From assembly GCA_025056095.1 (NCBI GenBank), contig JANWVW010000005.1:1-34126 (forward strand): a DNA stretch of 34,126 nucleotides. Direction: 5' to 3'. A program made the position numbers and the translations under genes. Within the stretch, counting starts at the first letter, position 1; each line of letters opens with the position of its first letter. Below the pieces are notes generated by a model. It searched no databases, had not been told where the DNA came from, and saw only the letters and a list, made by a program, of their open reading frames with translations. Shown piece after piece: positions 7,257 through 34,126 of the stretch. This DNA is from Bacteroidia bacterium. Its GTDB lineage: Bacteria > Bacteroidota > Bacteroidia > JANWVE01.

Positions 7257-8305
7257 GAGTAAATTTTTTGGATAATTTTTTGGGCGTGTCCTTGCCTGCA
7301 TTTCGCTTACGCTCATGCAGGCAAGGTCGGCGTGCTACGGGCTACGCTATCGCTTCGGTGCTTCGCTGCGCTTCGCACTGGGCTAACGCCCACCCTTCGC
7401 ATGCCTCACGCAAAAAATCTCTCGCTATTATATGGATCCTATGCATTATTACCCATATTTCGTCATGGGCGCAGCAAGATAGTTCAGTTTATCAGCCTAA
7501 ACGCATGCGCTGGGTGGTAGGAATAAGTGCCACAGGATATGCTGCTACTATGGGCAGTGTATATGCGTTTTGGTACGCCAAAGAACCACGTTGCCCTTTT
7601 CACTGGTTTGACGACCAACATGAATGGAAACAAGTAGATAAGTTAGGACATACCTATGCCGCATATCAACAAAGCAGAATAGCTATTCAAGCCATGAAAT
7701 GGACAGGCATATCTCGCAAAAAAGCCGTATGGATAGGTGGAATGTATGGCATCTTGATGCAACACCCTATTGAATACTTTGATGGCTTAATGTGTAAATA
7801 TGGTGCAAGTGTAGCCGATTTAGTAGCAAATACCGTAGGCTCTGCATTAGTCATTACAGAAGAGTTATTATGGCAAGAGCAGCGCATAGATTTGAAATTT
7901 TCTGCTCACCTAACTCCTTATGCCGCACAAAGACCTGATCTATTGGGCAAAACTTTTTCAGAACGCATACTCAAAGATTACAATGGGCAAACTTATTGGT
8001 TAAGCTTCAACATATATGATTTTTTAGGCGAAAAAGCCCAAAAATGGTATCCCAAATGGTTATGCATGAGTATAGGTTACGGCGCGGATGGACTACTAGG
8101 GGATTACCAAAAACCTTTACCTTGGATCGTAAAACAACGTGAATTTAGACAGTGGTACATTAGCTTAGACTTAAATTTACGCAAGGTACATACTAAGTAC
8201 AAAGTCTTAAATCATGTATTGCATGCTTTTAATTTGTTAAAAGTCCCTTTTCCTGCGGTAGAATTCAGTAGAAAAGGTACGCGTGTGCATCCTCTATATT
8301 TTTGA
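7247..8305 (+). CDS. DUF2279 protein with repeat-derived, uncertain 5' end
   Basis: The conserved part (about 7430-8305) encodes a periplasmic or membrane-associated DUF2279 protein. It has a signal-peptide-like stretch ending WAQ, then a transmembrane-like segment, a DKLGHTYAAYQQSR motif, and EYFDGLMCKYGASVADLVANTVGS, the family's characteristic D/G/H pattern. Function is unknown. The start is the problem. The frame stays open back to GTG 7247, which overlaps the corA stop, but codons up to about 7411 are translation of a GC-rich repeat unit. No in-frame ATG precedes the signal peptide. An ATG at 7401, inside the repeat, is one base out of frame; a -1 shift or one extra A in the A6 run (7412-7417) would give an ideal signal peptide beginning MPHAKKS. 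Treat the true start as unresolved. Confidence 0.75.
   Translation: MDLRVNFLDNFLGVSLPAFRLRSCRQGRRATGYAIASVLRCASHWANAHPSHASRKKSLAIIWILCIITHISSWAQQDSSVYQPKRMRWVVGISATGYAATMGSVYAFWYAKEPRCPFHWFDDQHEWKQVDKLGHTYAAYQQSRIAIQAMKWTGISRKKAVWIGGMYGILMQHPIEYFDGLMCKYGASVADLVANTVGSALVITEELLWQEQRIDLKFSAHLTPYAAQRPDLLGKTFSERILKDYNGQTYWLSFNIYDFLGEKAQKWYPKWLCMSIGYGADGLLGDYQKPLPWIVKQREFRQWYISLDLNLRKVHTKYKVLNHVLHAFNLLKVPFPAVEFSRKGTRVHPLYF
7282..7411 (+). repeat. GC-rich repeat unit, family B, single copy
   Basis: This is a 130-bp unit starting GGGCGTG and ending GCCTCACGC, the same length as the right arm at 16104-16233 read in reverse. Stem 1 is CCTTGCCTGCAT (7290-7301) with ATGCAGGCAAGG (7315-7326). A second stem is GTGC (7358-7361) with GCAC (7375-7378). 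The third is TGGGC-TAAC-GCCCA (7379-7392). A few bases of AT-rich core remain beyond it (ATCTCT at 7417-7422, compared with the core edge at 16096-16101). It separates corA from the signal peptide of the DUF2279 gene and supplies the sequence upstream of it. Confidence 0.85.
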
Positions 8306-15881: not shown

Positions 15882-16237
15882 TTTTGGGCGTGCCCCTTGC
15901 TGACGCAAGGGTCGGGGCATTCCGCACTGCGCTTCGCTTCGGTGCTTCGCTAACGCTCCGCACTGCCTATCGGCATGCTCCATGCCCCTCACGCGGATAA
16001 CATAAGCAATTATCTCTTTACCTTGTTTAAGCTTGAAGTACAAGCACTTACAAGCTAAAACTTTGCATAAGAAACAGAGAAACGATGTTTTCAGAGATCT
16101 CTTGCGTGAGGCATGCGGAGGGTGGGCGTTAGCCCAGTGCGGAGCGAAGCGTAGCACCGAAGCGATAGCGTAGCCCGAAGCACGCCGACCTTGTGGGCAT
16201 GAGCGCAAGCGAAACGCCCACAAGGACACGCCCAAAA
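15882..16237. repeat. Complete composite inverted-repeat element (REPIN/BIME-like)
   Basis: This 356-bp element is bounded by TTTTGGGCGTG (15882-15892) and CACGCCCAAAA (16227-16237). It has three parts: a 109-bp GC-rich left unit A (15886-15994), a 109-bp AT-rich core (15995-16103), and a 130-bp right unit B in inverted orientation (16104-16233). Both units start GGGCGTG and end CCTCACGC. Each has three stems: CCCTTGC-TGAC-GCAAGGG or CCTTGTGGGC/GCCCACAAGG; GTGC/GCAC; TGCC-TATC-GGCA or TGGGC-TAAC-GCCCA. The core has its own hairpin at 16031-16055. No transposase gene is present. It begins 2 bp after the NUDIX stop and ends just before the next gene's promoter. Confidence 0.88.
15995..16103. 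ncRNA. AT-rich core of the repeat element (possible structured RNA)
   Basis: This 109-bp core lies between the inverted GC-rich units. It has exactly the same length in the second copy (33980-34088) and differs from it at only a modest number of positions by eye. Hairpins visible are GATAA/TTATC near the left edge, GCTTG-AAGT...ACTT-A-CAAGC (16031-16055), and GAAA/TTTC (around 16079-16092). No ORF spans it sensibly. Transcription is not shown, so the RNA call is only a hypothesis. Confidence 0.3.
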
Positions 16238-25596: not shown

Positions 25597-26736
25597 ATGA
25601 AGCATGTTACTGCTTTCATATTCGTAATAGCAGTTTTAGTTCGGTTGTGTATTGCTCAGAGCGCGTTATTAGATTCTGCGGCTTTGGCTAAACAACCTTG
25701 GATAGATAATCTTAAAGATGCTCTAAAAAATCCTGAAAAGGTTTACAAGCTCACACTTTCTGCAAACAAATTAAAAACTTTACCGCCTGAAATTGGAAAA
25801 CTAACAGCTTTGCAGCAGCTCAACCTTTCCTACAATGAGCTTTCTACACTACCTTCCGAAATTGGTCAGCTCAAAAATTTACAAGCCATTATTTTGACAG
25901 GAAATAGATTCACAGAATTTCCTACACAACTTTATGAATTGCGAAAATTACAGTTGATTAGTCTGTCTGAAAATAGTTTGACTAAAATTCCTGTGGAAAT
26001 TGGTGTGCTATCTGAATTAGAATGGCTAGGGCTTGGAGATAATTACTTAACAGAGCTACCTGAAAATATCGGAGTATTGACAAAATTGAAACGGCTAAAT
26101 GTGGCAAATAATCAATTAAACACTTTACCTAAAAGTATAGAAAACCTTGCTCATCTGATAGAATTAAGCGCTACAGGCAACCAGTTTACAGAGATTCCCA
26201 AAGAAGTCTTTAAGCTCAAAAACTTACAAGTACTAAGCTTTGCTCGCAATCGGATTAAAGAGATTCCTGATGAAATTGCAAATCTGAAACATTTAATCAA
26301 GTTATATTTATTTGAGAATGAGATTAGTGAAATTAACCCGGCTATTTTTAAGCTTAAAAAGTTACAGGTATTGAGTTTGTCCAATAATCAAATAAAAAAA
26401 ATTCCTGATGAAATAGGGGAATTGGGTGAGCTTACTTGGTTAGGTTTAAATCACAATCAATGTAACTATGTTCCGAAATCTATCGGCAAGTTGAGTAAAT
26501 TAGAAAAACTATACTTGCATAACAATTTAATTTATGAGCTTCCTGTGGAAATTTCTAAATTGACTAAATTGACCAAAATTAACATTAGCAAAAATCGTAT
26601 TTCTGTTTTACCTATGGAAATTTCTTACTTAAAGCAGCTCAGGGAGTTGTATATTTATGATAATCCTATTTTACCTGCTCAAATAGAATATCTCAAAGCT
26701 GTTATGCACAAGTGCAAAATAGACGATGAGCCATAA
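25597..26736 (+). CDS. Secreted leucine-rich-repeat protein
   Basis: This 379-residue protein has a signal peptide (about 1-20, LVRLCIAQ) followed by about a dozen 23-residue leucine-rich repeats spanning residues 55-365. Each repeat has the form L-x-x-L-P-x-E-I-G-x-L-x-x-L-x-x-L-x-L-x-x-N. Such repeats form a curved solenoid used for protein binding; no enzymatic domain is present. Export suggests periplasmic or surface location. It is the first gene of an apparent operon with murB (11 bp gap) and sua5, an unusual partner for two housekeeping genes. No sorting domain or lipobox is visible. The start ATG lies just after a -7 box. Confidence 0.85.
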   Translation: MKHVTAFIFVIAVLVRLCIAQSALLDSAALAKQPWIDNLKDALKNPEKVYKLTLSANKLKTLPPEIGKLTALQQLNLSYNELSTLPSEIGQLKNLQAIILTGNRFTEFPTQLYELRKLQLISLSENSLTKIPVEIGVLSELEWLGLGDNYLTELPENIGVLTKLKRLNVANNQLNTLPKSIENLAHLIELSATGNQFTEIPKEVFKLKNLQVLSFARNRIKEIPDEIANLKHLIKLYLFENEISEINPAIFKLKKLQVLSLSNNQIKKIPDEIGELGELTWLGLNHNQCNYVPKSIGKLSKLEKLYLHNNLIYELPVEISKLTKLTKINISKNRISVLPMEISYLKQLRELYIYDNPILPAQIEYLKAVMHKCKIDDEP

Positions 26737-33864: not shown

Positions 33865-34126
33865 TTTTTTGGGCGTGCCCCTTGCTGACGCAAGGGTCGG
33901 GGCATTCCGCACTGCGCTTTCGCTTCGGTACTTCGCTACGCTTCGTACTGCCTAACGGCATGCTTCATGCCCCTCACGCAGATAACCTTTGCAGTTATGT
34001 CTTTACCTTGTTTAAGCTTGAAGTACAACTACTTACAAGCTAAAACTTTGCATAAGAAACAAAGAAACGATGGTTTCAGAGATCCCTTGCGTGAGGCATG
34101 CGAAGGGTGGGCGTAAGCCCAGTGCG
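33865..34126. repeat. Second composite repeat element, cut by window end
   Basis: This is the second copy of the 15882-16237 element in the same orientation: a T run, left unit A (33871-33979, 109 bp), AT-rich core (33980-34088, 109 bp) and the first 38 bp of inverted unit B (from 34089). The lengths of unit A and core are identical to the first copy. Stem changes include GTAC (33928-33931) with GTAC (33945-33948), where the first copy has GTGC with GCAC. The core hairpin GCTTG-AAGTA-CAAC-TACTT-A-CAAGC (34016-34040) is better paired here. It starts about 90 bp after the T9SS gene stop, and no gene lies between. Confidence 0.88.

Follow-up and report, generated by a model that had tools for sequence, protein, structure and literature searches.

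Inverted three-way-junction repeats dispersed in a Bacteroidia genome: a probable non-autonomous mobile element related to nuclease-carrying composites

Several described systems come close to the element reported here. The first are the REPIN/BIME doublets mobilized by RAYT transposases; in Bacteroidetes, subclass 2.6 of the TnpA-REP proteins has been reported with atypical flanking structures (PMC6006769). The rpn genes form a second case. Rpn acts as a toxin whose antitoxin is intragenic, and it is capable of anti-phage activity; Zhong et al. (2023) found rpn genes to have variable ends and no identifiable inverted repeats or duplications (PMC10327210). The same authors consider Rpn unlikely to be a transposase, so that the label "putative transposase" given to the Rpn-like family in NCBIfam is disputed (PMC10327210). 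Finally, Flavo-1 (RF01705) is a candidate sRNA without known function (PMC2864571, PMC9029176), and its matches in F. psychrophilum are both sense and antisense to transcripts, many being untranscribed (PMC9723704).

The window analyzed here is a stretch of 34,126 nt, contig 5 of a draft Bacteroidia genome (G000; 3.05 Mb, 397 contigs). It was compared with the MAG SKYG108 (G001; JANWVE01), of the same genus, and with a second congener (G002). At 15882-16237 the window holds a gene-free element of 356 bp. The earlier note had described 11-bp terminal inverted repeats; these are exact, and both ends were read where it had placed them (TTTTGGGCGTG at 15882-15892 and CACGCCCAAAA at 16227-16237). 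Two units in opposite orientation, A (113 nt) and B (136 nt), flank an AT-rich core, as had also been proposed, and this core measures 107 nt rather than 109. Other boundaries needed similarly small corrections: the second copy, placed near 33865, begins at 33867 and is truncated by the end of the contig, and the single B units given as 1-78 and 7282-7411 extend over 1-75 and 7278-7412. At 109-136 nt, the units are larger than classic REPs, which had been remarked on before. The features are listed in Table 1.

Table 1. Element units and related features in the window. R1, covariance model constructed with units from other families
Feature	Position	Strand	Details
A unit	15882-15994 (113 nt)	+	Outer end TTTTGGGCGTG; three-way-junction part 15886-15994; inner end CACGC
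AT-rich core	15995-16101 (107 nt)	+	16010-16070 and 16074-16098 match Rpn-composite margins (90%, 88% identity)
H hairpin repeat	16015-16062	+	AT-rich, ~45 nt; lies within the core
B unit, inverted	16102-16237 (136 nt)	-	Outer end CACGCCCAAAA; R1 match 16104-16233, 25.1 bits, E 1e-4
Second full-type doublet	33867-34126	+	Contig end cuts the B unit; 92% identity over 260 nt
Single B unit	7278-7412	+	R1 match 7282-7411, 26.6 bits, E 5e-5
B unit cut by contig start	1-75	-	Outer end at right; R1 match weak, E 0.36

Each unit has the architecture GGGCGT–hairpin–TCGGG…CCCTCACGC and folds as a three-way junction. The outer end extends into a T-tract (A-T6/7-GGGCGTG, with six or seven T in 138/181 ends), and at the inner end CACGC precedes an A. 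The predicted folding energy of the whole 356-bp element lies 10-13 s.d. below that of shuffled sequences. In the window, an Rfam scan found no credible family, its NEAT1, snoRNA and tmRNA matches being far under the cut-off, and Flavo-1 (gathering cut-off 42 bits) gave no match. The window also contains four spaced repeats of 68 nt (25864-26552; 60-75% identity) inside the ORF at 25597-26736, and these are probably leucine-rich-repeat coding sequence.

The possibility that only these copies exist in the genome was refuted by the copy count, which runs to hundreds. Of 706 candidates in G000, 40 were scored, and all 40 matched at full or near full length with E<1e-126; at least 39 further places thus carry the element over its whole or almost whole length at 88-94% identity. 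The 18-nt end pattern occurs at 296 sites in G000, against none for the reversed control, and the generalized motif GGGCGTKNCC-N5-35-GGTCGGSS at 725 sites in the 3.05-Mb draft, again against none. With some 725 unit sites in 3 Mb and no conventional transposase found so far, this is a very dense invasion.

The forms of the element were counted in an 829-kb sample of G000. Full doublets number 29 in this sample and short ones about 20, and clear of contig ends there are 12 single A and 32 single B units, 44 in all. The short doublets (~95-121 bp) have lost the interior and kept both outer ends, and forms of ~570-620 bp are also present. Without exception, the copies of the H hairpin (56 in the G000 sample, 191 in 245 kb of SKYG108) are located within elements or adjoin units. 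The number of H per core varies, reaching four or five in other copies; the dominant SKYG108 cores have one H (~107 nt), or three or four (~300-350 nt). A doublet cluster of G000 (C25; L176, 2691-10004) has enlarged cores of 128-435 nt with several tandem H, the long form that is common in SKYG108. In a different arrangement on SKYG108 contig JANWVE010000121.1 (L255, 5713-7296), two inverted A units stand 1.36 kb apart around a short array of near-identical repeats, which was seen as a repeated peptide in six-frame translation and looks like a CRISPR array.

Copies are found mostly between genes: 101/109 are intergenic in G000, where coding sequence makes up 87%, and most of the remaining eight overlap ORF starts, which have probably been over-extended. 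They are slightly commoner between convergent genes (26/101, vs. 99/529 gaps). Many G000 contigs begin or finish within a unit, and the fragmentation of this assembly would be explained by contigs breaking inside units.

Units also occur as the ends of larger composites. Pairs of outward-facing units, spaced by 1-2 kb, each surround one nuclease gene in the layout unit-H-gene-H-unit, with the same ends as the 356-bp doublet. The only close paralogues (≥70%) among 644 sampled genes belong to two nuclease families. The first comprises four Rpn-like proteins, three of which match TIGR01784 at E 1e-6 to 8e-9, under its curated cut-off, while the fourth is missed. PF12784 scores ~22 bits on these proteins and up to 77 bits on congener homologues. 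The PD-(D/E)XK residues D58, E76, Q78 and K79 are invariant, and no related solved structure was found by sequence search. The second nuclease is an AAA-ATPase/PDDEXK_9 protein (PF09820, 3e-47; PF08011, 4e-15).

Distinct Rpn genes were counted by using the four Rpn-like proteins as a profile and scanning the retrieved loci for units. An outward-facing unit is present on the assessable sides in 13/13 cases in G000 and 12/13 in SKYG108 (25/26 together). Enclosure by outward-facing units was observed for 4/4 sampled Rpn genes vs. 2/640 other genes (Fisher 2e-9). Among the sampled PDDEXK_9 relatives, C7, C28, C38 and C39 show an outward unit wherever a side could be read, and C3 is without any. 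None of the assessable sides of the G002 Rpn genes has an outward-facing unit. That genome contains at least 20 Rpn-like genes or fragments (e.g., L301 and L294), some in tandem and many at contig ends; neither units nor common inverted repeats were found around those examined.

Composites at different places are similar across gene, H and unit, and the similarity ends within ~5 bp of the outer end. Examples of such boundaries are L302/L324 (1246/507), L302/L306 (2742/1106) and L308/L315 (1242/549), and the PDDEXK_9 pair L189/L190 behaves in the same way. The composite thus moves as one piece. In three subclades of the Rpn tree, unit-flanked genes of G000 and G001 group with G002 genes that have no flanking units, a pattern suggestive of three or more separate captures of Rpn. 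Moreover, L299 and L308 are 89% identical over the C-terminal half of the Rpn-like gene, H and the A unit, with N-terminal nuclease domains that fall in different subclades; domain swapping within the element is a possible origin. We found no description of such composites in the open-access literature, which does not prove that none exists.

The core of the 356-bp form can be traced to these composites. Positions 16-76 of the core (window 16010-16070) share 90% identity with the margin that separates the Rpn stop codon from the A unit in L299 and L308, and positions 80-104 (window 16074-16098; 25 nt only) share 88% with the margin preceding the B unit in L305. The core thus represents both inner margins of such an Rpn composite, fused to each other, and the 356-bp form is therefore an internal-deletion, MITE-like derivative.

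This derivation also fits an explanation in which the Rpn-like nuclease is itself the mobilizer, the composite being autonomous, the 356-bp doublet its MITE, and the PD-(D/E)XK enzyme cutting the folded unit ends. All G000 and nearly all G001 Rpn loci are inside composites, and both of these genomes have doublets and hundreds of copies, while G002, where Rpn is unlinked, has few copies, mostly single units. We nevertheless consider this explanation unlikely, because two unrelated nuclease families share the same ends and because 20 unit-bearing genomes have no TIGR01784 match, although this model likewise fails to recognize one of our four Rpn-like proteins. The separate capture of three or more Rpn lineages and the arguments of Zhong et al. 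against Rpn as a transposase point in the same direction. Rather than a transposase, the nuclease is more likely a stabilizing or anti-phage toxin-antitoxin cargo.

Evidence that the element moves also comes from its insertion sites. A comparison of flanks, suggested in the earlier note, was run on 44 doublets and 45 single units and found no target duplications. Three sites differ in presence or absence between G000 and G002, a comparison that includes no close strains and does not fully separate gain from loss. In the cleanest case, a 102-nt unit of G002 (L209, 629-730) lies between genes that in G000 are separated by ~5 nt (L067, near 18390); at the other two sites G000 has a single A unit and a short doublet, respectively, that G002 lacks. 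The scarcity of such sites is due to poor conservation of gene order between the two genomes. Element-bearing gaps are less often collinear with G002 (2/22 vs. 12/42 gaps over 60 bp), which is no more than suggestive. Plasmid sequences gave no match to the element or to Rpn, and phage sequences none to Rpn. Five viral contigs in IMG/VR (L268-L272) have the exact Flavobacteria-type unit motif; these may be phage-borne units or mis-binned host pieces.

The earlier note had compared the element to REPIN/BIME doublets mobilized by a RAYT. The comparison held for the dispersed inverted doublet in hundreds of copies and failed for the RAYT. Pfam Y1_Tnp (PF01797) is absent from G000, G001 and G002 (91-99% completeness), and the anticipated TnpA-REP/RAYT gene sharing the termini of the element was not found elsewhere either: the generalized motif occurs at none of 30 Y1 loci (~3.3 kb each) from other unit-bearing genomes, and 13 of these 30, searched with the structure-aware model R1, contain no unit. 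A RAYT/Y1 transposase was thus rejected for this genus. It would still be conceivable that the element is a true REPIN whose RAYT/Y1 mobilizer was lost or is missing from the draft. Its inverted doublets of structured units without target duplication, the Y1 genes present in 15/17 other unit-bearing genomes searched, and the atypical flanks of TnpA-REP subclass 2.6 (PMC6006769) would agree with this, but given three genomes without Y1_Tnp and Y1 loci without units we hold it to be very unlikely. A retro-element was dropped as a candidate, there being no reverse transcriptase (PF00078) in the three genomes. Tyrosine recombinases gave 2-5 matches per genome.

The unit is old and spread across the phylum rather than restricted to this genus. 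The generalized motif was found in 91/396 Bacteroidota genomes (42/172 genera), mostly with 1-26 sites each, and some of the matches in GC-rich genomes are due to chance, as shown by the control. In most of the other genomes sampled, single units are the only form, without an inverted partner. An alignment of 21 units from other families has invariant GGGCGT, GGTCGGGCT and ATCC-T-ACGC, and yields a three-way junction made of P1 (GCGTG/CACGC), a hypervariable hairpin P2 and a long arm P3. Compensatory double changes are present in 7/19 pairs, among them GGGCGTT, which is always paired with TAACGC. The arms of P2 vary and yet remain complementary (11.4 of 12 pairs vs. 8.7 when shuffled). Selection for folding can produce such compensatory changes, but so can hairpin self-correction. 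A strand bias of G.T pairs in P2 (33 vs. 2) was given no weight, since it may reflect one inherited pair in one subfamily.

The covariance model R1 was built from these 21 units alone, leaving out the genus of the window. It finds four units in the window (E 1e-7 to 1e-4) as well as units of G002, which bears out the relatives in other Bacteroidota that had been suggested earlier. It scores 33.7 bits (E 6e-7) on the A unit at 15886-15994, with P1, P2 and P3 in the predicted fold, and 36.8 bits (E 1e-7) on the second doublet at 33871-33979.

The Flavo-1 model gives a match on the unit at 7/7 sampled loci of other families, one reaching 62 bits and the rest, at 28-40, falling short of the cut-off. 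When R1 is compared with canonical Flavo-1, the matching region is P3 only. At L113 (2678-2759), a canonical Flavo-1 of 79 bits consists of the P3 arm alone, without P1 and P2, and is a sister repeat of the unit. This relationship offers an explanation for Flavo-1, an "sRNA" family that is very abundant in bacteria and has no known function; at least some of its members would be pieces of dispersed mobile DNA. A motif search of the open-access literature gave no description of the repeat.

The conserved fold with its covariation, the Flavo-1 match of the unit family, and the intergenic location with a slight preference for convergent genes could also be read as signs of a structured RNA or regulatory repeat (a Flavo-1-like sRNA, an mRNA-end stabilizer or a terminator) that is not mobile and was spread by ordinary recombination. 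We regard this as highly improbable: composites move whole with exact ends, and units differ in presence or absence between congeners. Intrinsic terminators are ruled out by the polarity of the outer ends, which have T before the stem and A after it. The mixed orientation of the Flavo-1 matches in F. psychrophilum and the lack of transcription of many of them (PMC9723704) also argue against an RNA and are as expected for a dispersed DNA element.

The 356-bp element is, in our judgment, quite probably non-autonomous mobile DNA of the MITE/REPIN type, derived from a nuclease composite and mobilized in trans. This conclusion draws on the observed copy number, the common ends, the homology across Bacteroidota, the presence/absence sites, the composite boundaries and the deletion-derivative core. 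The ends of the element would be the two inverted three-way-junction units, closed by GCGTG/CACGC, with their T-tract-GGGCG sides outward. Larger composites with the same ends carry a PD-(D/E)XK nuclease gene, either Rpn-like or AAA-ATPase/PDDEXK_9, and move whole. Internal deletion of an Rpn composite would have given the 356-bp form, which, together with shorter and single-unit forms, would then have multiplied in AT-rich regions between genes, leaving its target sites unduplicated. A putative trans-acting enzyme would recognize the units, probably on a folded single strand; the conservation of the fold, together with the missing duplications, points to such single-strand processing. The family as a whole is most likely selfish and non-autonomous, with folded ends recognized in trans. 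We count against the doublet model that it leaves the movement of single units unexplained. A broader proposal seems unlikely to us. In it, the Rpn-like enzyme would mobilize a transposon of its own, autonomous and free of duplications, whose three-way-junction ends would be used by virtue of their fold alone; the element would represent the massively amplified deletion derivatives of this transposon, and the unit family would also account for Flavo-1.

Compared with known systems, the element resembles REPINs/BIMEs in its intergenic inverted palindromic doublets, hundreds of copies, variable spacer and lack of target duplication. It differs in having units that are three-way junctions of 109-136 nt rather than simple short hairpins, in the absence of a RAYT, and in being able to enclose nuclease genes. 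Instead of a GTAG/CGTC tag on a 20-40-bp palindrome, its ends read T6-7-GGGCGTG and CACGC-A. The CGTC-tagged REPs (PMC3733652), some of them from Bacteroidetes, are likewise palindromic and lack a dedicated transposase, but have another tag and much smaller units, and the text consulted reports no enclosed genes. Flavo-1 RNA (RF01705) is similar insofar as its model matches the long arm P3 of the Bacteroidota unit, at best with 62 bits. Its canonical form is without P1 and P2, however, the G000 units are under detection by the Rfam model, and the unit here is part of mobile DNA, known from DNA sequence only.

Like MITEs, the element has inverted ends, is non-coding, occurs in many copies and has an internally deleted, gene-carrying parent. 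In contrast to MITEs, its ends are long structured units, target-site duplication is absent, and the parent encodes an Rpn-like PD-(D/E)XK nuclease and not a recognized transposase. With the rpn genes (COG5464), the genes of the Rpn composites share an Rpn-like N-terminal nuclease domain, a C-terminal helical region with variable repeats, multiple copies and mobility. Rpn-like nuclease genes, putatively toxin-antitoxin and anti-phage, inside exact inverted ends were not found in published work: the rpn genes of Zhong et al. have neither inverted repeats nor fixed ends, whereas the composites described here have both, in two genomes, and these exact ends make the spread of rpn-like genes testable.
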